In this document: positions 7,332 to 34,783 of the stretch, one piece after another
Layout: each line of letters opens with the position of its first letter
Position numbering within the stretch: position 1 is the first letter of the stretch
Assembly: GCA_902769585.1 (NCBI GenBank)
Contig: CACXPT010000086.1
Span: 1 to 34,783 of the forward strand
Reading direction: 5' to 3'
Length of the DNA: 34,783 nt
Source of the DNA: an uncultured bacterium
Lineage (GTDB): Bacteria > Verrucomicrobiota > Kiritimatiellia > RFP12 > UBA1067
Notes under the pieces: model-generated
What the model was told of the DNA's origin: nothing
Seen by the model: only the letters and a program-made list of their open reading frames with translations
Databases searched by the model: none
Translations under genes and position numbers: made by a program

Positions 7332-9149
7332 ATGAAGAAGGTATTGTTGGTGGTGATGATGTTCTGGGAAGCGGCGCTATCGCCGCTTCTTGGAGATGGA
7401 AGCGACAGGAGTGTCGCTTCTCCTAAGTGGCTGCTGCTTGAAGAAATTGTCGCATGCGATATGGCGGCGGACGACGCCGTGGCGGCAATCCGCACGCCCG
7501 AGGAGCTGGCGGCGAAGCAACGCGCGTGGCGCGCGTGGTGGCTCGACGCGCTCGGCGAGATGCCGGCGCGTACGCCGCTCAACGCGCGCGTGGTGGGGCG
7601 TTCCGAGTTTGACGGCTTCCGTCTTGAGAACATCATCTTCGAATCGCAACCCGGCGTGTACGTGACGGCCCACCTGGCGTTGCCGATGCGGCCGCGCGGG
7701 AGCGCGGCCCTCCCGCATGGGGAGTCGCCACGGGAGGGACGCGCTCCTGCGCGTCCGCCCTATCCTGTTGTGCTGATGCCTCTTGGGCACTCGGACGCCG
7801 GCATCCTCAACCCACGCTATGCGGCGCACCTTGCTATGGCGGCGCGCGCGGGCTTCGCAGCGTTCGCGTGGGATCCGATCTCGCAGGGTGAGCGCCGACA
7901 GGCGACCGACAGGAAATACGACTACACGGACAACTGCTCCACCGAGCACACGCGCCTCGGCGCGCGCGGCTGGCTCGTGGGCTGGAACTACGCGCGCTTC
8001 CGTATCTGGGACGCGGTGCGGGCCATCGACTACGTGGAGTCGCGCGCAGACCTCGACTGCTCGAAGCTCGGCATCATGGGCACGTCGGGCGGCGGCACTA
8101 TGAGCGCCTACATGCAGGCATTCGACCCGCGCATCAAGGTGGCGTTCCCGAATTGCTACGTCTCGTCTCTGCGCGAGGTGATCGGTGCGCGCGGCTGCCA
8201 CGACGCGGAGCAGTTCTTCTGGAACATGCTGCCGAACGGCTTCAACCACGCGGCGATCCTCGCGATGGGACAGCCCCGCGTGGCGCTCGCGACGGGGAGC
8301 CGCTGGAAGGACTACTTCCCGCACGCGGGCGCCGTCGCCACGTTCGCCGTGTTCACGAACATGACGGCGCGCCTTGGATTTGCCGGCCCCTACTGGCACT
8401 TCAGCTGCGATGGGCCACATGGCTTGCCGCCCTCGACGCGTGCGGCGCAGATCGACTGGATGCGCCACTGCATCCTGGGCGCATCCGCGCCGAAGCCGCT
8501 TGGCGACTATCACGTCCTTGACCGGGTGGGGACTGACGCGAAAGATCCCTGCCACGCCGCGCTCCCGTTCCCGGCGGAGGCGACGTTCTGCACGCCGACG
8601 CACCAGGTGCGCGACCTGTCCGGCTTCAAGAGCGTTTACGCGCTCATCGCGGACGAGGCGCGGCGTCGCGCAAAGGAGCGCAAGCCGCGTACGCGCGAAG
8701 AACTGCGCGAGATCGTGCGCCGCCGCGCAGGGATACGTCCGCTCGCCGACCTTCCCGCCACCGTGCAGAAGCCGTTCGACCACCCGAAGTTCGGTTGGTG
8801 GTACTTGAAAGGCGTATACGGCACGCGCCGCGAGAACGAGGCGGCGATGCTCGCCACGCTCGGACGGAGCGTGGTGGGACGCGACGCGGAGAACATTATC
8901 ATCAAGGCGGCAGCGCAGGTGAAGGCGAACGGCGGCAAGCCCGTGCCGCTGGAGGCGAAGGGCTGGGACTGCATTGTCGCCGCCCATGCATACGCCGCCG
9001 AACCGCAGCTCTTTTCGGAAGTCCGTTTCTCCGAACCGCCGCCGTCCTGGACAGAACTGGTTACGAATCCCGATCCAGCGCGCGACTCCTACGCCATCGC
9101 CGTGTGGGGCGCCTTGAAGGACTACGACTGGCCCGACCTCATTCACTAA
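7332..9149 (+). CDS. Secreted alpha/beta hydrolase (acetyl-xylan-esterase-like)
   Basis: A 605-residue exported hydrolase. A hydrophobic N-terminus (MKKVLLVVMMF) leads into EAALSPLLG, encoded by a hairpin repeat. The core has VVLMPLGH, a GTSGGG nucleophile elbow (Ser near residue 252) and DGPHG (candidate catalytic His near 363), the pattern of the esterase/dipeptidyl-peptidase-like branch of the fold. The third catalytic acid is not obvious. Residues around 120-143 are two inverted 27-nt repeats read as protein (RPRGSAAL...EGRAPARP), placed just before the first core strand. The substrate is unknown; the GH99-like gene downstream suggests polysaccharide deacylation (inference). ATG 7332 is preceded by AAGGTGGG. 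The 123-nt gap upstream shows no clear promoter. Confidence 0.7.
   Translation: MKKVLLVVMMFWEAALSPLLGDGSDRSVASPKWLLLEEIVACDMAADDAVAAIRTPEELAAKQRAWRAWWLDALGEMPARTPLNARVVGRSEFDGFRLENIIFESQPGVYVTAHLALPMRPRGSAALPHGESPREGRAPARPPYPVVLMPLGHSDAGILNPRYAAHLAMAARAGFAAFAWDPISQGERRQATDRKYDYTDNCSTEHTRLGARGWLVGWNYARFRIWDAVRAIDYVESRADLDCSKLGIMGTSGGGTMSAYMQAFDPRIKVAFPNCYVSSLREVIGARGCHDAEQFFWNMLPNGFNHAAILAMGQPRVALATGSRWKDYFPHAGAVATFAVFTNMTARLGFAGPYWHFSCDGPHGLPPSTRAAQIDWMRHCILGASAPKPLGDYHVLDRVGTDAKDPCHAALPFPAEATFCTPTHQVRDLSGFKSVYALIADEARRRAKERKPRTREELREIVRRRAGIRPLADLPATVQKPFDHPKFGWWYLKGVYGTRRENEAAMLATLGRSVVGRDAENIIIKAAAQVKANGGKPVPLEAKGWDCIVAAHAYAAEPQLFSEVRFSEPPPSWTELVTNPDPARDSYAIAVWGALKDYDWPDLIH
7368..7420 (+). 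repeat. Two GAAGCG/CGCTTC hairpins in the hydrolase signal-peptide region
   Basis: Hairpin one has arms GAAGCGGCG (7368-7376) and CGCCGCTTC (7381-7389) around CTAT. Hairpin two has arms GAAGCGACA (7399-7407) and TGTCGCTTC (7412-7420) around GGAG. The outer six pairs are the same and the inner three differ by compensatory changes. A near-identical hairpin in the same phase occurs at 11626-11647 in another signal peptide. Confidence 0.85.
7688..7758. repeat. 27-nt hairpin element, copies 2 and 3 as an inverted pair (in hydrolase)
   Basis: A minus-oriented copy at 7688-7714 (C-G stem version, loop TCCC) and a plus-oriented copy at 7732-7758 (A-T version, loop TCCT) are separated by 17 nt that include GCATGGGGAG. 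Both are in frame and add about 24 residues. Two inverted copies a short distance apart resemble a REPIN. Confidence 0.9.
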
Positions 9150-9173
9150 TACCTGACCCAATCTCCAACCCCC

Positions 9174-9229
9174 AAAGCTAAAAGCTAGAAGCTAGAAGCT
9201 AAAACCTAAAACCTGAAAGCAGGAACCTA
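9174..9229 (+). repeat. Heptanucleotide array ending at a start codon
   Basis: Eight 7-mers (AAAGCTA, AAAGCTA, GAAGCTA, GAAGCTA, AAACCTA, AAACCTG, AAAGCAG, GAACCTA) run without a break. The final A is the first base of the ATG at 9229, and the junction of the last two units makes AGGAA, the likely ribosome-binding site for that gene. Confidence 0.93.
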
Positions 9230-11496
9230 TGAAGAAACTAGTGCTGGCAGCAATGGTATCGCTCGCATGCGGAATGCAGGCGGCGGATGTCGTGGCGTGG
9301 AGAGGCGCGGAGATGTCCGCGTGGACGAACCACATCTCGCGGTTCGCAAACCCGCGGATGACCGCGGAGGGGATTGCGGTGGAGGCGGTAGACCGCGACC
9401 CGCAGATCAGCGTAAAGACCCCCGTGCCGTTCGCTGGGGCGTGCAACCATTACGTTGAGATCACGGTGCGGAGTGGCGTGCCCGGACGGCACCAGCTCTT
9501 CTGGAGCTCCGAGAAGAACGGTAACTTCACGGCGGAGCGGCACGCCGACTTCAACGTGAAACGCGCGGGCGAATGGGAGACGCACACGGTGCGTCCGGGC
9601 TGGATCGGCGAAGGGCGCATCACCCGTCTGCGCATTGATCCGCCGGACAGCCTGCGCGGCACGTTCGAGCTCAAGTCCGTGCGCGTGTTTGCGGAGGGCG
9701 ATGCGCGCGGAATCGACACGCGGAAGGTGACCGGCGTCGTGTTCGACGCGGCGTCGCCGGCGCAGGAGTACGCCTCGATCACATGGTACTCATCCTCTAT
9801 GCCGGGGCGGAGGCTGCTCGGCTTCACCACGTCGCCGGACGGCGCGCGGCATACGTACTGGTTCGACTTCACGCATCCGCACAACCTCAAGTACAGGTAC
9901 GCAGGCAAGACGTCCTGGTCCGGCACGTCCTACGCGCTCGCGGTGGAGCAGGTGCTGTCCGGCAGGAAGTTCCCCGTCGAGAACCTGCGCCTCGTCTCGG
10001 GGCGGCCCGACCTGCCGCCAGACATCGGCGTGACGTACGCGGGCCCCGAGCTCGCCATTCCGCGCGCGGGGCGTCCGCTCGCGCTTGAGCTCATCCTGCG
10101 CAACTACGGCACGGCGCCGGCGCGGAACGTGCGGTTCGCCCTCGATGGACTGTCGGCCAACTGCCGCGTGCTGAATGCGAGCGACCTCGCACCGTCCGGC
10201 GAGATCGGCGCGTGCGAGGGCTGGGACAGCGTGGGCGACGACTGGGCGAGCGGACAGCTTCCCAACGAGCGGCGGTTCCGCGTGACGCTCAGTGACCCCG
10301 GCGCGGGGCGACACGCGTTCGGTCTTACCATCTCGGCCGACGGCATGGCACCGCGCCGCGTGTCCGTGACGGCGGAGCTGTTGCCATCTCTCGGGCTTCC
10401 CAAAGCGCACTGTATGCCCGCGCCGAAGCCAATCAAGACGGGCAGATACGAAATCGGCGCGTTCCTTTTCCCCGGGTGGGACGGCCACCTATGGCACGGC
10501 GTCTGGACGCGCGCGCCGCACCGCAAGCCCGTTCTGGGCTGGTACGACGAGACGAACCCCGATGTGATCGACTGGCAGATCAAGCATCTCGTCGAGAACG
10601 GCGTCTCCTTCGTGTTCGTGGACTGGTACTGGAGCCGCGGCCACCACAGCCACGCGCACTGGCCGATCGCGTTCGGCAAGGCCCGCCATCGCGGACTGCT
10701 CAAGTGGTCGCTCATGTGGGCGAACCACAACGGGCGGGGGTCGCATTCGGTTGCGGACCAGGAGAAGGTCACACGCTACTGGATCGACAACTACTTCCGC
10801 GATCCGCAGTACATGCAGATCGACGGCAAGCCCGTGGTGTCCATCTGGAGTCCGGACGGAATGGAACGCGACCTTGGGCCCGGCGGCTGCAAGAAGCTGC
10901 TGGACGTTTCGCGGCGTCTCGCCCGCGAGGCCGGGTTGGGCGGCATCCACTTCATCGCGGTGCGCTCGCCGAGCGGCAGTACGGACCGCGCGTTCCTCGC
11001 GCGGTACAAGACGCTCGGATTCGACGGCACGTGCGTGTACAAGTACATGGACGGCGGCGACCCCAAGGTGCCGCCGCGCGTGGACGGGTTCCAGGAGTAC
11101 AAGAATCTCGCTGACGCGAGCCTCCGCCACTGGCGCGAACTGCAGGAGAACGCCAACCTGCCGTTCCTGCCGTCGCTCACGACGGCCTACGACGACCGCC
11201 CATGGCGCGGCGAGATGAGCTCTCCAGTGAAGAACATCAACGCGGCCGATTTCAGGCGCATCTGCGTGGATGCGAAGAAGTTCGCGGACGAGACGGGCAT
11301 CACGCGCCTGCTGATCGGTCCGCTGGATGAATGGGGCGAAGGCTCCATCGGCTATCCGAACCGCGAGCTGGGCTTCGGGATGCTGGAGGCGGTGCGCGAC
11401 ACGTTTGGCGAGAAGCCGGCGGAAGGCTGGCCGCTCAACTACGCGCCCGAGGACGTGGGGCTCGGTCCCTACCCGCGCGCAGACGACCCGTTATGA
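9229..11496 (+). CDS. Secreted WbsX/GH99-like protein
   Basis: A 755-residue exported protein with a signal peptide (MKKLVLAAMVSLACGMQA). Residues 20-160 look like a beta-sandwich carbohydrate-binding region, and about 270-390 look like a CARDB/NEW3-type domain (LELILRNYGTAPARNV). From residue 405 there is a TIM-barrel domain with GAFLFPGW, VLGWYDETNPDVIDWQIK, FVFVDWYW and PLDEWGEGS. These match the GH99-like glycosyltransferase WbsX domain, related to endo-alpha-mannosidase/mannanase folds. The enzymatic activity of these secreted PVC/Bacteroidetes members is not established. The start codon abuts a heptamer array. It lies between a hydrolase and an HzsA-like protein in the same direction with short gaps. 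Confidence 0.75.
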   Translation: MKKLVLAAMVSLACGMQAADVVAWRGAEMSAWTNHISRFANPRMTAEGIAVEAVDRDPQISVKTPVPFAGACNHYVEITVRSGVPGRHQLFWSSEKNGNFTAERHADFNVKRAGEWETHTVRPGWIGEGRITRLRIDPPDSLRGTFELKSVRVFAEGDARGIDTRKVTGVVFDAASPAQEYASITWYSSSMPGRRLLGFTTSPDGARHTYWFDFTHPHNLKYRYAGKTSWSGTSYALAVEQVLSGRKFPVENLRLVSGRPDLPPDIGVTYAGPELAIPRAGRPLALELILRNYGTAPARNVRFALDGLSANCRVLNASDLAPSGEIGACEGWDSVGDDWASGQLPNERRFRVTLSDPGAGRHAFGLTISADGMAPRRVSVTAELLPSLGLPKAHCMPAPKPIKTGRYEIGAFLFPGWDGHLWHGVWTRAPHRKPVLGWYDETNPDVIDWQIKHLVENGVSFVFVDWYWSRGHHSHAHWPIAFGKARHRGLLKWSLMWANHNGRGSHSVADQEKVTRYWIDNYFRDPQYMQIDGKPVVSIWSPDGMERDLGPGGCKKLLDVSRRLAREAGLGGIHFIAVRSPSGSTDRAFLARYKTLGFDGTCVYKYMDGGDPKVPPRVDGFQEYKNLADASLRHWRELQENANLPFLPSLTTAYDDRPWRGEMSSPVKNINAADFRRICVDAKKFADETGITRLLIGPLDEWGEGSIGYPNRELGFGMLEAVRDTFGEKPAEGWPLNYAPEDVGLGPYPRADDPL

Positions 11497-11544
11497 TCGT
11501 ACACCTTTTTGGCGTATTTGTACAATGCGTTTTCCGGCGCGATA

Positions 11545-11553
11545 TGCGATAAT
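11545..11553 (+). promoter_or_regulatory. Extended -10 promoter candidate for the HzsA-like gene
   Basis: TGC followed by GATAAT (11548-11553), about 37 nt before the likely start at 11590. No convincing -35 box stands at 16-18 nt. The discriminator ATCCCCG resembles other promoters in the window. Confidence 0.4.
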
Positions 11554-11589
11554 ATCCCCGTCATGATTGGGTTCTACAGGAGACATGCG

Positions 11590-13200
11590 ATGAAGGTTGT
11601 GTTTCTGGCGATGATAATCTTCGGGGAAGCGGCGCTCTCGCCGCTTCGCGCTGGCATCGCCACCGATGGCGAGACGCTGCCGTGGCAGGGTGTGGAGCGC
11701 CTGACCGACGGCGAGATCAACCCCACGTGCGCGTGGCGGTGGCAGAAGAAGCCGATCCGCGTGGAGTTCGACCTCGGTGAGGCGCGCGAGGTGGGCGGCG
11801 TGCGCCTCACGAGCGGACGCAGCTGGGTGAACTGTGGCATCAAGGCGGCGAGCTTCTACGGTGACGGCCAGCCGCTCGCGGAACACCTCGCCTTCCGCCC
11901 CGCCAACACGTACCGCGACAACTATGCGGTCTGGAAGCCCGCCACCTGCCGCCGTGTGACGATGGTGATCGAGGACACCTACGACTTCAAGCCCAACTAC
12001 TATTCCGGTTACACACACGCCGCGACGCCCCTCCTGCCCAAGATCTTTGAGACGCCGCCGTATCCCGAGTTCTCCGGCAAGTTCCCCACCGTGCAGATCG
12101 CGGAGATGTCGTTCTTCGGCAAGGATCCGCCGGATGATCTACCACTTCCGAACAAGGACGGTGCCATCGCCTATCCTGAAAGCCGCCTCGTGCGCGATTG
12201 GCTCTACCAGAGCTGCTCCGTGTCGAACATCTCCCACCTCGCGAACGTGGAGCCCGACACCACCAAGCCCGATCCCATGGGCGAGGATCTTTCCTCTGTC
12301 CTGAAAGCGACCGCTTGCGGTCGCGATACCGTCTTCCTCACCTCGCGCGCATCCCTCCGCCGCGAATTCCTCGCCGCCTTCCGTAAGGATTTCACGCAGT
12401 TCATCTACGTGAAGCACATCGTGATGGGCAACTCCATCTTCCACGCGACCGATGACCTCACCGACGCCTCGTACCAGGAATGGAAATCCGTGCCCGACTA
12501 CACCGTGGGCGGCTCGCAACTCGTGCTAGCCACGATCGGCGCGGACGGCGCCGTCTCCCAGGAGGTGCTGATCGACAAGCCGCACGGCTACATCCGCGAC
12601 CCGAATCTGCACTTCGACGGCAAGACGCTCGTGTTCTCCATGCGCGACAATCTTACAACCTCCAACTACCACCTCTTCACGCTCGACCTCGAGACGCGCG
12701 CCCTGAAGCAGCTCACCTTCGACGGACTCGTGCCTGCGGCGGACATCCCGGGAGGGCCGCGCTCCTGCGCGGCCGCATCCGACACCCCGGGAGGGCCGCG
12801 CTCCTGCGCGGCCGCATCCGACTTCCCGATGCCGTGCAGCGACATCGAGCCGTGCTGGCTGCCCGACGGCTCGATCGTGTTCCAGTCGACGCGGTGCAGC
12901 CACTCGGTGGACTGCTGGCCGCTGCCCGTCTCGAACCTCTTCCGCTGCGACGCGGACGGCTCGCACATCCGCCGCCTCGGCTTCGACCAGGTGCAGACCT
13001 TCTTCCCGCAGCTGATGGACGACGGACGCGTCTCGTACACGCGCTGGGAGTACAACGACCGCTCCGCCTCCGGCCTCCAGCAGCTCTACGCGATGAATCC
13101 CGACGGCACGAAGCAGACGGGCCTCTTCGCGAACAACAGCGAGTTCCCGTTCTCGCTCATCCACACGCGCATGATCCCGCGAAGAGCGTGTGGGGCATGA
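11590..13200 (+). CDS. HzsA-like secreted protein, N-terminal part (frameshifted)
   Basis: N-terminal 536 residues of a protein related to hydrazine synthase alpha subunits, of the kind found outside anammox bacteria. After a signal peptide (MKVVFLAMIIFGEAALSPL) comes a discoidin/F5-8C-like domain (about 30-175), then a PD40/TolB-type propeller (IRDPNLHFDGKTLVFSM, IEPCWLPDGSIVF, AMNPDGTKQTGLF). The frame breaks after RMIP: a run of three C at 13176-13178 where four would restore CCC GCG AAG and continue as AKSVWGMN in the next entry. Two tandem 27-nt hairpin copies (12750-12815) add GGPRSCAAAS twice, and another hairpin (12307-12324) adds ATACGR. ATG 11590 has AGGAGA 6 nt upstream. Sequencing error and real frameshift cannot be separated here. 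Confidence 0.72.
   Translation: MKVVFLAMIIFGEAALSPLRAGIATDGETLPWQGVERLTDGEINPTCAWRWQKKPIRVEFDLGEAREVGGVRLTSGRSWVNCGIKAASFYGDGQPLAEHLAFRPANTYRDNYAVWKPATCRRVTMVIEDTYDFKPNYYSGYTHAATPLLPKIFETPPYPEFSGKFPTVQIAEMSFFGKDPPDDLPLPNKDGAIAYPESRLVRDWLYQSCSVSNISHLANVEPDTTKPDPMGEDLSSVLKATACGRDTVFLTSRASLRREFLAAFRKDFTQFIYVKHIVMGNSIFHATDDLTDASYQEWKSVPDYTVGGSQLVLATIGADGAVSQEVLIDKPHGYIRDPNLHFDGKTLVFSMRDNLTTSNYHLFTLDLETRALKQLTFDGLVPAADIPGGPRSCAAASDTPGGPRSCAAASDFPMPCSDIEPCWLPDGSIVFQSTRCSHSVDCWPLPVSNLFRCDADGSHIRRLGFDQVQTFFPQLMDDGRVSYTRWEYNDRSASGLQQLYAMNPDGTKQTGLFANNSEFPFSLIHTRMIPRRACGA
11626..11647 (+). repeat. GAAGCG/CGCTTC hairpin in the HzsA-like signal peptide
   Basis: Arms GAAGCGGCG (11626-11634) and CGCCGCTTC (11639-11647) around CTCT. 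It differs from the hairpin at 7368-7389 by one loop base and encodes the same EAALSPL in the same phase at the same place in the protein. Confidence 0.88.
12307..12324 (+). repeat. Short perfect palindrome inside the HzsA-like gene
   Basis: GCGACCGC, TT, GCGGTCGC: an 8-bp perfect stem in frame encoding ATACGR, in a linker ahead of the propeller region. It is probably another small hairpin repeat, but only one copy is seen here. Confidence 0.55.
12750..12815 (+). repeat. 27-nt hairpin element, copies 4 and 5 in direct tandem
   Basis: Copies at 12750-12776 and 12789-12815 are identical over 27 nt and sit 39 nt (13 codons) apart, both with the C-G stem version (GGCCGCGC TCCT GCGCGGCC). Each gives GGPRSCAAA and lies in a loop between propeller strands. 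Confidence 0.93.
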
Positions 13201-14861
13201 ACACGAACGCCGTGCGGATGACCTTCCCCGGCAACCGCGTTATGGAGATCCCGTGGTCGCCGTGGGACAACCCGAGCGGCCCCGCCACCACGAACATCCC
13301 CGGCATGTACTACCTCGCGGGCGCGGCGATGAACGCCGCCCCGGGCGTCCAGCCCGCACGCCAGCCGCACGACTACCACTACAACGTCTTCGACATGCAC
13401 TCGCAGTTCGGCCCGCAGTGGGCGTACCCGTTCCCGCTTGGGCACGGGCGCCTGCTTGTTTCGTACATGCCCGAGGGGTGCCGCTACTACCGCGGGCCAT
13501 ATTCCTCGCGCTTCGGCGTGTACGCGATGGACGAGACGGGCCGGCGCGAGCTGCTCGCGTTCGACTGGGGACAGCACTGCATGCAGCCGATTCCCGTGAA
13601 GCGTCGCGCGCCGCCGCCGCGCACCTTGAAGAAGCTCGACTACCGCGAGGGCTTCGGCACGTACTACGTGCAGAACGTCTACGAGGGCGCGGCGATGGCG
13701 GGCGCGCCGAAGGGATGCGTGAAGCGTCTGCGCGTGATCGGCCTCGAGTACCGTCCCGTCCACATCGGATGGAACTGGCAGTATGGCTGGCACTCCACGC
13801 AGGGGAAGATCGGCACGCCCATCGCGGTGGGCAACGGCGCGTACGACGTGAAGCACGTGCTCGGCGAGGCGGACGTGGAGGCGGACGGCTCGTGTAGCTT
13901 CCGTGCGCCGGCGCGCACGCCGCTCTATTTCCAGCTCATCGACAAGGACGGCTGCTGCATCCAGACGATGCGGAGCTGGTCCACTCTCCAGCCGGGCGAG
14001 GTGAACGGCTGCATCGGCTGCCACGAGCACCCGCACCTCGCAGGCGTGGAGAACGCAAAGGCGCTCGCGCTCCGCCGCGCGCCGCAGCGGCTCAAGCCGT
14101 GGTTGCCGGGCGGCACGACGCATCCGTTCATCGAGGCTCTGGAGAAGGACGGTCCGCTCGCCTCGCTCGACAACTGGATGGGACTCAACCGTCCGAAGGC
14201 GATCGTGGACACCGACCGCAACGACGGCTTCAGCTTCTCGCGTCTCGTCCAGCCGATCCTCGACGCGAAGTGCGTATCCTGTCACGACGGCTCGGGATGG
14301 CCGCGCTCCTGCGAAGCCGCCAAAATGGCGGCTCCCCATGCGGGAGGGCCGCGCTCCTGCGCGGCCGCCTGTCCGCCCCCGTCGATGGACCTCCGCGGGA
14401 CACGCGGCCAACTGCCGCCCTCCGATGACCAGTCGAAGCGCAAGTACACGACCTCCTACCTCGCGCTCACGTACAAGGGCCAGTGCAACGAGAAGATCAA
14501 CTTCGCGCACGGACTCGGCTTCGCGCCGTTCAAGCCGCCGTACTCTTTCGGGTCGGCGAAGAGTGCCGTGTGGCTGTCGCTCAAGAAAGGGCACCACGGC
14601 GTGGCGCTCACGGACGCGGAGCTGCGCCTCCTCGCCTGCTGGATCGACCTCGCCGTGCCGTTCTGTGGCTCGTACGTGGAGCACCACGACTGGAACGACT
14701 GGTACATCCAGCGCTTCCAGTACACTTGCAACAAGCGCGCGGCGTTCGCGTGGCAGGAGCTGAACGACGTCCGGCGCGAGTACGGCCTTGCACCAGTACC
14801 GCTTACGGGCTTCGTGCCGAACGTGGCGGAGCCACGCCGCCAGAAATTCTGGTCGGAGTAG
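13197..14861 (+). CDS. HzsA-like secreted protein, C-terminal part with two heme c motifs
   Basis: Continuation of the preceding gene in the next frame. Reading can be traced back to GCG at 13179 (AKSVWGMN); the first ATG in frame is 13197. It carries the hydrazine synthase alpha middle-domain signature (YYVQNVYEGAAMAG, CVKRLRV, PLYFQLIDKDG, MRSWSTLQPGE), directly followed by CIGCHE (14010-14024), and then a C-terminal cytochrome-like region with CVSCHD (14271-14285). Two covalent hemes are therefore expected, so the protein should act in the periplasm or outside the cell. Hydrazine synthesis is not implied, because HzsB/C partners are absent. The stretch at 14294-14368 is a hairpin-repeat insertion right after the second heme motif. 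Confidence 0.74.
   Translation: MNTNAVRMTFPGNRVMEIPWSPWDNPSGPATTNIPGMYYLAGAAMNAAPGVQPARQPHDYHYNVFDMHSQFGPQWAYPFPLGHGRLLVSYMPEGCRYYRGPYSSRFGVYAMDETGRRELLAFDWGQHCMQPIPVKRRAPPPRTLKKLDYREGFGTYYVQNVYEGAAMAGAPKGCVKRLRVIGLEYRPVHIGWNWQYGWHSTQGKIGTPIAVGNGAYDVKHVLGEADVEADGSCSFRAPARTPLYFQLIDKDGCCIQTMRSWSTLQPGEVNGCIGCHEHPHLAGVENAKALALRRAPQRLKPWLPGGTTHPFIEALEKDGPLASLDNWMGLNRPKAIVDTDRNDGFSFSRLVQPILDAKCVSCHDGSGWPRSCEAAKMAAPHAGGPRSCAAACPPPSMDLRGTRGQLPPSDDQSKRKYTTSYLALTYKGQCNEKINFAHGLGFAPFKPPYSFGSAKSAVWLSLKKGHHGVALTDAELRLLACWIDLAVPFCGSYVEHHDWNDWYIQRFQYTCNKRAAFAWQELNDVRREYGLAPVPLTGFVPNVAEPRRQKFWSE
14294..14368 (+). repeat. 27-nt hairpin element, copies 6 (degenerate) and 7, with an extra GCCGCCA hairpin
   Basis: A decayed copy at 14294-14320 merges into a hairpin with arms GCCGCCA (14316-14322) and TGGCGGC (14326-14332), then CTCCCCATGCGGGAG, itself able to fold, then an intact copy at 14342-14368. 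The whole cassette is in frame, adding about 25 residues just after CVSCHD. A decayed version of the GCCGCCA hairpin lies at 28444-28475. Confidence 0.85.
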
Positions 14862-20877: not shown

Positions 20878-22356
20878 CTAGAGGTTGGCGGCGAACCTGA
20901 CAGCCTCGAAGACGGCCTTTGACTTATTGACGGTCTCCTGGTATTCCTTCGCGGGGTCGGAATCCGCCACGATGCCCGCGCCTGCGCGCATTGTCAGGGT
21001 GCGGCCCTTCAGGATCATCGTGCGGATGACGATGGCGAAGTCCATGTCGCCAGTGTTGCTGAAGTAGCCGGCCGCGCCGCCGTAGATGCCGCGAGGGGAC
21101 TTCTCGAGCGAGGCGATTAGCTGCATGGCACGTATCTTCGGAGCGCCAGTGAGCGTGCCTGCGGGGAATGCCGCGCGGATGAGGTCGTATCCGTCCTTGT
21201 CCGCCTCTAGCCTCCCCTGCACGTGCGAGACGAGGTGCATCACGTGCGAGTAGCGCTCCACGGCGGCGAACGACGTCACCTTCACGGTGCCCGGCTCCGA
21301 GACGCGACCGAGGTCGTTCCGCCCCAGATCCACCAGCATCACGTGCTCCGCGCGCTCCTTCGTGTCCGCCAGCAGCTCCGCCTCGAGGGCGGCGTCCGCG
21401 TCCATCGTCGCGCCGCGCGGACGCGTTCCGGCGATTGGCGCCGTGGAGGCGATGCGGCCTTCCAGCTTGACGAGCTCCTCGGGCGACGAGCCGATCAGCG
21501 TGCGGTCGCCGAGCTTCATGAAGAAGTTGTACGGCGAAGGGTTCACCATGCGCAGCGCGCGGTAGAGCGAGAGGGCGGAGACGTCGGTCTCCAGCGTGAA
21601 CTTCTGCGAAGGGACGATCTGGATGCACTCGCCGGCGCGGATGGCCTCCTTGCACTTCGCCACGATTTCCGTGAACTCCGCCTCCGTCATTTCTGGCGTG
21701 AAGGAAGCGGGAGGGTCGCGCTCCTGCGCGACCGGATCCTGCGCGGACGCGCGGGAGCGCGTCCCTCCCTGCTCGACGCACTTTGCGATCGACTCGGCGC
21801 TCATGAGGCGATCGTACACGGCGGCGATGCGAGTCTGCGCCGCGTCGTATACCGCGCGAAGCGAAGGGAGGGACTCGGAATCCACGATCTCCACTATCAG
21901 GACGGTCTGGCGCACGTTGTCGAAGATGACGAGCGTGTCGGTGAGCATGAACGCGGCCTCTGGCGTCCCGGGCTCGTTCGTCAGGCCGACGTGCGGCTCG
22001 AACGTCTTGACGATGTCGTAGGCGAGGAAGCCGATGGCGCCGCCCTGGAGAGGGGGAAGTTCTGGGGCAGGCGTGTAGGGACGCTCGGAGAGCCGCGCCT
22101 TGAGGGTGGAGAGGATGTCCGACTGCCCGTTCTCCTGTACGACTATCGCGTACGGGTCGATGCCGAGGAACGACCATCGTCCGCGCTGCTCGCCGCCCGC
22201 CACGCTCTCGAGCAGGAATACGGACTCGTCGTTTGCCGCGCGCGACAGCACCGAGACGGGCGTTTCGCGGTCGGCGAGGTATTCGCGATAGACCGCGAGG
22301 CGCCCGCCAGCGGAAGCCCGCCGCGAGAATTCCTCGAATGTCAGTTCCTTCAACAT
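20878..22356 (-). CDS. trpE: Anthranilate synthase component I
   Basis: Converts chorismate to anthranilate with ammonia from TrpG. The 492-residue protein has the N-terminal regulatory part (LLESVAGGEQRGRWSFLG, including the tryptophan-binding LLES-like element), and the chorismate-binding domain with IQIVPSQ, SPEELVKLEG, PIAGTRPRG, DLGRNDLGRV, YSHVMHLVS, FPAGTLTGAPK and the GIYGGAAGYFS stretch. ATG 22356 has GGAG 6 nt upstream; the TTG at 22368 is less likely. In the linker between the two parts an inverted pair of 27-nt hairpin elements (21709-21769) adds about 20 residues (EQGGTRSRASAQ...). The promoter lies at 22395-22423; the short leader has no room for an attenuator peptide. Confidence 0.95.
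   Translation of the reverse strand: MLKELTFEEFSRRASAGGRLAVYREYLADRETPVSVLSRAANDESVFLLESVAGGEQRGRWSFLGIDPYAIVVQENGQSDILSTLKARLSERPYTPAPELPPLQGGAIGFLAYDIVKTFEPHVGLTNEPGTPEAAFMLTDTLVIFDNVRQTVLIVEIVDSESLPSLRAVYDAAQTRIAAVYDRLMSAESIAKCVEQGGTRSRASAQDPVAQERDPPASFTPEMTEAEFTEIVAKCKEAIRAGECIQIVPSQKFTLETDVSALSLYRALRMVNPSPYNFFMKLGDRTLIGSSPEELVKLEGRIASTAPIAGTRPRGATMDADAALEAELLADTKERAEHVMLVDLGRNDLGRVSEPGTVKVTSFAAVERYSHVMHLVSHVQGRLEADKDGYDLIRAAFPAGTLTGAPKIRAMQLIASLEKSPRGIYGGAAGYFSNTGDMDFAIVIRTMILKGRTLTMRAGAGIVADSDPAKEYQETVNKSKAVFEAVRFAANL
21709..21769. repeat. 27-nt hairpin element, copies 8 and 9 as an inverted pair (in trpE)
   Basis: A plus-oriented copy at 21709-21735 has the T-A stem version (GGTCGCGC TCCT GCGCGACC). 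A minus-oriented copy at 21743-21769 has the A-T version with loop TCCC. Seven nucleotides separate them. The pair is in frame in trpE, in the linker before the chorismate-binding domain. Confidence 0.9.
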
Positions 22357-33965: not shown

Positions 33966-34783
33966 ATGAAAAACAGGATAAAACTAGAAATCTCATTCTT
34001 TTCGCTGGCGTTTCTTCTGATTTCCGCGCTTGTCGTTGGTGGGTGCGGGAAGGAAGAGGATAGCGGACGCGCAGGAGCGCGTTCCTCTCAGGACGCCACT
34101 CTTGCGCAGACCGGCGACAATGGCGGGAACGATGCCGGGAAAGGCGCGAACCAGCGCGACGTGGCTAAAGATGGCACAGTTGACGTCAAGGCCAAAGCCA
34201 TGCCATTCGTGGCAGGATTTGACCAGACGGAGCTGCGCGGGTTTGAACTTAAGTTCTCTGACATGCCCGACCTGAACAGGCTTATGGATTACGTGAAGAT
34301 CGTACCTTCGCCGGGGCCTGTCACGACCGACTGGTGGGACTGGAACAAGACTGTCGCGATCCGTGGCGACTTCGCGGCGCGCACGACGTATCAGGTGACG
34401 GTCAAGGCTGGTCTGCCGATGGCGGACGGAAGGAAGACGGCTTCAGAGTTTCGTCGGACATACACGACCGGCAACAAGGCGCCGTCGATGGATTTCGCTG
34501 CCCGCGGACGCTACCTGCCGCCGGCCGGTGCGCGTGCGCTTGTGGTGAAGACGGTCAACGTGACAAACTTCGTGAGCGCTGTGCGGCCCGTTCCGACGCG
34601 CAACATCGTCCAGCTGCTGGCGCGCGAGGAGGACCGATACAGGAACTACTGGCGCACCAACATCGACTCCGAGAACACGGCGGAGCTCGCAGAGGAGGCG
34701 GTCGTGTCCACGAACCGCGTGACGGCAAAGCTGAACGAGGAGGTGGAGAACGTGGTGCGGGTGCGCGCGTACGACGGCGAGGC
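33966..34783 (+). CDS. Alpha-2-macroglobulin-like lipoprotein, N-terminal part (3' end outside window)
   Basis: Open from ATG 33966 to the window end (272 codons). The N-terminus MKNRIKLEISFFSLAFLL leads to a lipobox ending VVGGC (Cys27), so the mature protein should be lipid-anchored. The part seen matches the first domains of bacterial alpha-2-macroglobulins, which trap proteases in the periplasm: LRGFELKFSDMPDLNRLMDYVKI, DWWDWNKTVAIRGDF, TTYQVTVKAGLPMADG and VVKTVNVTNFV. The rest, including any thioester motif, lies outside. Residues about 33-41, in the linker after Cys27, are encoded by a 27-nt hairpin element. GAGG stands 8 nt before the ATG. A downstream pbpC would be typical but cannot be checked. 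Confidence 0.82.
   Translation, partial: MKNRIKLEISFFSLAFLLISALVVGGCGKEEDSGRAGARSSQDATLAQTGDNGGNDAGKGANQRDVAKDGTVDVKAKAMPFVAGFDQTELRGFELKFSDMPDLNRLMDYVKIVPSPGPVTTDWWDWNKTVAIRGDFAARTTYQVTVKAGLPMADGRKTASEFRRTYTTGNKAPSMDFAARGRYLPPAGARALVVKTVNVTNFVSAVRPVPTRNIVQLLAREEDRYRNYWRTNIDSENTAELAEEAVVSTNRVTAKLNEEVENVVRVRAYDGE
34063..34089 (-). repeat. 27-nt hairpin element, copy 10 (in lipoprotein linker)
   Basis: A minus-oriented copy, two mismatches from the A-T version, with loop TCCT on the minus strand. It encodes GRAGARSS directly after the lipobox region. The second stem pair is no longer complementary, so it is slightly decayed. Confidence 0.8.

Follow-up and report, generated by a model that had tools for sequence, protein, structure and literature searches.

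A REP-like palindrome translated within the signal peptides of two secreted-protein genes, probable halves of one ancestral gene, in rumen Kiritimatiellae

We analysed a contig of 34,783 nucleotides (nt) from an uncultured bacterium of the Kiritimatiellia (CACXPT010000086.1; the window below means this whole stretch), in which two genes for secreted proteins carry almost the same hairpin within the codons of their signal peptides. Gene A encodes an esterase-like alpha/beta-hydrolase and gene C a protein resembling HzsA, the alpha subunit of hydrazine synthase; gene B lies between them (Table 1). Palindromes 1 and 3 each start exactly 36 nt past an ATG (7332 and 11590), in the same frame, and differ in a single loop base, and codons 13–19 of both genes read EAALSPL, preceded by MKKVLLVVMMFW in gene A (MKKVLLVVMMFW-EAALSPL) and by MKVVFLAMIIFG in gene C (MKVVFLAMIIFG-EAALSPL). 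An earlier, sequence-only reading of the window had pointed to a near-identical palindrome at the same place and codon phase of the two genes, and to a third hairpin with the same outer arms and compensatory inner pairs. Both observations are borne out, the second by palindrome 2, in which the outer arms are kept and two inner pairs are A–T in place of G–C. All three hairpins are perfect stems and, when folded, form stems of 9–10 base pairs (bp) at −15.5 to −17.5 kcal/mol. The loose pattern GAAGCG-N2..14-CGCTTC matches the window four times against 0.2 expected, a number reached by no shuffle, and the tight two-copy pattern finds just the sites of palindromes 1 and 3 in the whole 4.9-Mb genome.

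Judged by their sequence, the window hairpins are copies of a palindromic element like the repetitive extragenic palindromes (REPs). We counted copies with the strict pattern GAAGCGRC-N6-GYCGCTTC, using the same pattern read backwards as a control. The strict pattern occurs 7 times in the window's genome (G000), 7–92 times in most congeners, in a few congeners not at all, and most often, with 139 copies, in G023, a member of another genus; the reversed pattern gave 0 or 1 per genome. A pattern scan of named genomes gave single matches in many unrelated taxa, among the matches listed. Copy statistics were drawn from 179 copies in 100 loci from relatives, the loci being picked by similarity to the window's repeat. 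The consensus unit, GAAGCG-RC-R-NGAG-Y-GY-CGCTTC-CCCG, is a 22-nt palindrome with a 9-bp stem, an AGAG-type purine loop and a one-sided tag, CGGG (CCCG on the other strand). The tag stands on exactly one side in 165 of the 179 copies, and agrees with the polarity of the loop in all 164 that could be classified. In the 184 copies whose outer arms are intact, both variable stem pairs covary almost perfectly: pair 7–16 is GC in 136, AT in 47 and mismatched in 1, and pair 9–14 is GC in 108, AT in 73 and AC in 3.

Neighbouring copies most commonly stand tag to tag (29 pairs, mostly 41–46 nt apart). The next commonest inverted arrangement has the tags outward at 29–31 nt, and palindromes 1 and 2 stand in this way; the second hairpin of gene A would be a separate copy of the same REP-like family, in the usual inverted-pair arrangement. 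A second hairpin at this place is also found in G006_A and G006_C (the letter after a genome's handle marks its gene A or C) and is absent from G005_A and G016_A. The window's genome belongs to the same genus as G006 and G004. Database records of uncultured Lentisphaerae bacterium RUG572 and Kiritimatiellae bacterium RGIG2765 (goat omasum) are identical to the stretches fetched from G006 and G004, respectively.

Many copies of the repeat are translated. Predicted coding sequences hold 98 of the 179 copies (55%), the coding share of that DNA being 78.5%. The element can be read through without a stop in any of its six frames; the four non-basic frames are used about equally, by 17–25 of the intragenic copies each (24 in the frame and orientation of EAALSPL), and only 8 of the 98 are read in the strongly basic one (KRRERRFP or KRRSRRF). 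EAALSPL is one of four tolerated translations of the repeat. Where orthologous coding sites differ in repeat content, the difference in length was a multiple of three in 30 of 30 comparisons, which include reciprocal pairs and come from about seven gene groups. One of these differences is a double insertion of 69 nt, lacking in G009, in what appears to be purL, a gene for a conserved enzyme. At two loci (L052, G012:C470; L296, G004:C431) a basic-frame repeat (SGKRRSRRF, SGKRHSCRF) forms the signal-peptide n-region of another secreted family; this n-region resembles a start of the twin-arginine translocation (Tat) type.

The sequence-only reading had suggested that a hairpin repeat might land preferentially in signal peptides, and that enrichment by codon position would reveal it. 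The intragenic copies did not bear this out: 2 of the 98 fall within the first 30 codons against 6.5 expected, and 13 within the first 60 against 12.9. The repeat thus has no preference for signal peptides, and we rejected this candidate explanation; the part of the suggestion that stands is that the repeat is of a mobile type, linked to a transposase.

Indeed, when Y1 transposases were searched for in 40 relatives, a gene resembling those of REP-associated tyrosine transposases (RAYTs) was found in the congeners G010, G012 and G015 (L317, L319 and L320). The three genes, with a 221-amino-acid product bearing a PNHVH motif, are 98–100% identical to each other and have arrays of 2–5 hairpins of the window's family on both sides. 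The best NCBIfam match of the protein is NF047646 (REP_Tyr_transpos; E 3.6e-17), at 62.6 bits below the curated cut-off of 80, and its best PDB match is TnpArep (4er8, E 4e-4). Matching palindromes stood on both sides of 9 of 18 Y1 loci; of 600 intervals placed at random in repeat-bearing DNA, 2 had them. In other relatives, related transposase genes have other palindromes at their borders, each with a sequence of its own. A RAYT relative of 50% identity in G004 is bordered by a variant palindrome, and the window's own genome has two such transposase genes with other palindromes, CAACGGGC... (G000:C98) and CCGGCGCG... (G000:C24). Loci L344, L346, L347, L348, L350, L358 and L359 each have a RAYT-like gene with a separate palindrome family at its borders. 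The layout of transposase genes with flanking hairpins is that of RAYT genes with their REPs (PMC2817692). From this observed linkage we infer that the hairpins are mobilised by a RAYT-type HUH transposase.

We compared the 5' ends of genes A and C across six genomes. Upstream block P1 precedes gene C in G000, G006, G016 and, in part, G003, gene A in G005 and a paralogue of C in G004; another block, P2, the tail of a different gene, precedes gene A in G006 and G016 and gene C in G004. G005_A and G000_C are 94% identical in signal-peptide DNA and 73% upstream of it, and their mature parts are unrelated. Likewise, G006_A and G004_C have unrelated bodies, and share 92% in signal-peptide DNA and 90–93% over 200 nt upstream. 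Within the window the resemblance is lower: the 36 nt before the hairpin of gene A are 69% identical to the counterpart in gene C, and 64–69% to other copies. The stretch common to A and C genes ends at or just past the hairpin, which is kept at its place in the signal peptide in all ten aligned A and C genes and also in G003_A. The 5' module comprises the upstream sequence, the signal peptide and the hairpin; among the 40 relatives it turned up at full length in no genes but those of the A and C families and one C paralogue. The sequence-only reading had described the two genes as unrelated and had counted on there being no homology in the signal region beyond the hairpin. The mature bodies are unrelated as it said, but the signal region is homologous in related genomes, through the signal peptide into the promoter, with signal-peptide DNA up to 94% identical between the A and C genes of relatives.

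A source for this shared 5' end is suggested by three relatives, in which A and C form one open frame (G023, 1645 amino acids; G001, 1708; G017, 1687), with A as the N-terminal domain. In the fused proteins the linker is short, and the single signal peptide lacks the intact hairpin; the fused gene is preceded by P2 in G001 and by a weaker P1-like block in G023. In the window's clade A and C are separate genes, with upstream sequence, signal peptide and hairpin common to them in swapped combinations. The fused state in three relatives, together with the restriction of the full module to these families, speaks for the fission of one gene and not for a general exchange system; the divergence of the three lineages with the fusion also favours fission. 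Genes A and C of the window probably derive from the halves of a single ancestral gene for a secreted protein, and gene fission with a duplicated 5' end, presumably in the direction from one gene to two, best explains the coincidence between them.

We give a probability of roughly 0.7 (0.72) to the following account: a REP-like, RAYT-spread palindrome lay in the signal-peptide codons of an ancestral A–C gene, which later split with both halves keeping the 5' end. A RAYT-type HUH single-strand transposase would spread the palindromes in this group of rumen Kiritimatiellae, many copies would come to sit within genes, and those that preserve the frame would survive. One copy would have inserted among the codons for the signal peptide in an ancestral gene whose secreted product had an esterase-like A and an HzsA-like C domain. 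In the window's clade this gene would then have been split in two. The simplest course would be that it was duplicated and that the two copies then underwent complementary deletions, the C copy being rejoined directly behind the hairpin. As to the 5' end at the split, duplication with complementary loss and copying of the 5' end both fit. A split of one gene would be the reason why both halves carry the same 5' end, and the upstream context, start, signal peptide and hairpin are indeed observed to be shared in the same codon phase; the order of events leading to this would be as set out above.

Several points weigh against this account. Neither the window's genome nor the copy-rich congeners G006, G009, G011 and G013 yielded the cognate RAYT gene, but only relatives of about 40–50% identity or none; these are draft metagenome genomes, and the repeat may or may not be mobile in them today. 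Trees of A, of C and of both concatenated, with distant homologues for rooting, gave low support (28–85%) for the split clade and did not resolve the order of events; given this support, the single gene may instead have arisen by fusion of separate ones. A stand-alone C is present in G050 and a stand-alone A in G035. A frameshift interrupts gene C in the window and, at another place, in G003, and in G016 a TAA follows shortly behind its signal peptide; it seems that gene C decays repeatedly, or else that the draft assemblies have errors. Finally, the coding sequences in which copies were counted were called by a codon model trained on these genomes, a simple model and not a gene caller.

The sequence-only reading also proposed that signal peptides are exchanged as cassettes. 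The hairpin would then be a recombination joint, and promoter and signal peptide would be repeatedly swapped between genes. This is unlikely, though several observations suit it: at least six combinations occur of the contexts (P1, P2 and a third one) with A, C and the C paralogue, the segment common to A and C genes ends where such a joint would lie, and G000_C and G003_C are 93% and 76% identical upstream and 86% in the body, but only 50% in the signal peptide. The restriction of the full module to the two families and one C paralogue argues against it, and the A–C fusion is a simpler source of a common 5' end. What survives of the cassette proposal is a 5' module shared by the A and C families in several combinations, and not a general exchange. 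Only tentatively, RAYT-spread palindromes could act as translated joints, the common signal-peptide DNA letting promoter and signal peptide rejoin new bodies; if true, this role would drive gene fission and the swapping of 5' modules among unrelated secreted genes.

It is also possible, if rather doubtful, that selection maintains the hairpin as an RNA element close to the mRNA 5' end, tuning translation or secretion; the sequence-only reading had likewise raised a possible effect on mRNA folding at the start. Its retention in the ten aligned genes and G003_A is what such selection would leave, and gene C of G016 (L089, reverse strand near 8700) has at this place the hairpin GGATCGGCGTTCTTGCCGATCC, with two compensated stem pairs and an 11-bp stem, which is suggestive only. 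This hairpin is unique in G016, where the single GAAGCG-type copy lies in gene A, and a local replacement family for it was looked for and not found. The compensated pairs may reflect selection on structure or palindrome-directed mutation, and one case cannot decide. Against an RNA element, the compensation is seen in one lineage only, palindrome-correcting replication errors give the same pattern, the repeat elsewhere sits anywhere in genes, and an Rfam search for a known structured RNA gave no match for the hairpin.

That the repeat landed separately in both signal peptides, at a tolerant or preferred site, is very improbable. The repeat is present in many genes, and its basic-frame copies do form the n-region in the other secreted family described above; however, the distance from the start codon is the same in genes A and C, N-terminal enrichment is lacking, and the identity of signal-peptide DNA outside the hairpin largely refutes independent insertion. 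Chance, or the ordinary coding similarity of signal peptides, which are alike in composition and in the window's two genes only 69% identical upstream of the hairpin, is refuted as the origin of the hairpins by the excess of palindromes in the window and by a copy number far above that of the reversed-pattern control.

The assignment of gene A to a family is weak, its match to Pfam GCE_fung being below the cut-off and its PDB match to an acetyl xylan esterase also being weak. Gene B has its own, ordinary and different signal peptide, with no hairpin there, and an AT-rich run of AGCTAAAAGCTAGAAGCTAGAAGCTAAAACC stands just upstream of it (about 9175–9228). At 13167–13179 gene C has lost about 34 codons and changed frame relative to the intact orthologue in G004. 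A second palindrome family, with variants, has six copies in the window (7737–7756, 12755–12774, 12794–12813, 14347–14366, 21714–21733 and 34065–34084); the copy near 7737 lies in an insertion in gene A that is common to G006 and absent in G016 and G023. At 1951–2031 the window has an imperfectly repeated CCTTAAGGACTTTAAAGACC-type sequence with overlapping inverted repeats.

Table 1. Features of the window around genes A, B and C.
Feature	Position	Strand	Details
Gene A, secreted alpha/beta-hydrolase, esterase-like, 605 amino acids	7332..9149	+	Open reading frame; orthologues in G003, G005, G006, G016
Gene A signal-peptide DNA before hairpin	7332..7367	+	MKKVLLVVMMFW
REP-like palindrome 1	7368..7389	+	GAAGCGGCGCTATCGCCGCTTC; read as EAALSPL; tag side partly decayed, CTGG in place of CGGG
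REP-like palindrome 2	7399..7420	+	GAAGCGACAGGAGTGTCGCTTC; opposite orientation; 31 nt start-to-start from palindrome 1; translated GSDRSVAS
Gene B, WbsX / GH99-like domain	9229..11496	+	Pfam PF14307, E 4e-16; between A and C
Upstream module P1, promoter-like	11497..11589	+	TACAATGC...TATGCGATAATAT...AGGAGACATGCG; homologous blocks in relatives
Gene C 5' part, secreted HzsA-like protein	11590..13200	+	tblastn with intact 1098-amino-acid G004 orthologue; frame breaks near 13167-13179
Gene C signal-peptide DNA before hairpin	11590..11625	+	MKVVFLAMIIFG; 94% identical to G005 gene A, 92% to G006 gene A
REP-like palindrome 3	11626..11647	+	GAAGCGGCGCTCTCGCCGCTTC; read as EAALSPL; CGGG tag intact, 5' side
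Gene C 3' part, second frame	12480..14861	+	Hydrazine synthase alpha-subunit middle domain, PF18582, E 6.5e-30; G004 orthologue residues 547-1098
Two tandem in-frame copies of second palindrome family in gene C	12739..12813	+	GGGAGGG-CCGCGC-TCCT-GCGCGG; palindromes 12755-12774, 12794-12813; absent from G004 orthologue

These genomes are a natural example of a palindrome, linked to a transposase, that is translated as part of many genes. Close relatives without individual copies make the cost of in-frame insertions, and the preference for frames, measurable, and the RAYT-like genes with their own palindromes are a ready-made set for working out how transposase and hairpin recognise each other. 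For annotation, EAALSPL, GSGALAAS and KRRSRRF in these genomes are translations of the repeat and not conserved protein motifs. In addition, a secreted two-domain protein is documented here that closely related gut bacteria encode either in a single gene or in two, the signal peptide then being duplicated.

Both domains have known counterparts. Gene C shares with HzsA-like proteins the middle domain of the hydrazine synthase alpha subunit (PF18582), although in the window its frame is shifted. Gene A is similar to carbohydrate esterases; it forms one polypeptide with C in G001, G017 and G023 and is separate from it in the window.

REPs, their inverted-pair hairpins (REPINs) and RAYTs (TnpA-REP) are known in Pseudomonas, Stenotrophomonas and E. 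coli (PMC2817692, PMC3116915, PMC3733652). The repeat described here is like them in being a short GC-rich palindrome with a one-sided tag, a high copy number and inverted pairs, and in the arrays on either side of a Y1/HUH transposase gene, the palindromes differing from one RAYT to another. It differs in its tag, CGGG in contrast to GTAG/GTGG or CGTC, in the location of the sampled copies, 55% of which are intragenic whereas known REPs are mostly extragenic, and in its RAYT-like proteins, which score below the NCBIfam cut-off. Intragenic REPs have been described, most of them in Opitutus terrae of the Verrucomicrobia, where GTAG REPs, often dimers, are translated in many open reading frames (PMC3733652). 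Those repeats are likewise translated within reading frames and come from the same phylum-level group, but have another tag and sequence and are part of a mainly intergenic class. The Rickettsia palindromic elements (RPEs) also lie in genes, RPE-4/6 with a CGTC tag (PMC3733652), and, as here, are palindromes translated in frame within unrelated proteins; RPE-4/6 differ in sequence and tag, and the linkage to a RAYT-like gene sets the present repeat apart. Several features of RAYT-associated REPs in the broad sense are present: a dispersed short palindrome, a RAYT-like gene flanked by it on both sides, and a one-sided tag with inverted pairs. Those of the GTAG and CGTC superfamilies are not, the tag being neither GTAG/GTGG nor CGTC and the copies not being predominantly extragenic (98 of 179 in coding sequence). 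With its CGGG tag and with most sampled copies in genes, the system is thus a variant of the REP/RAYT kind that stands outside the GTAG and CGTC superfamilies.

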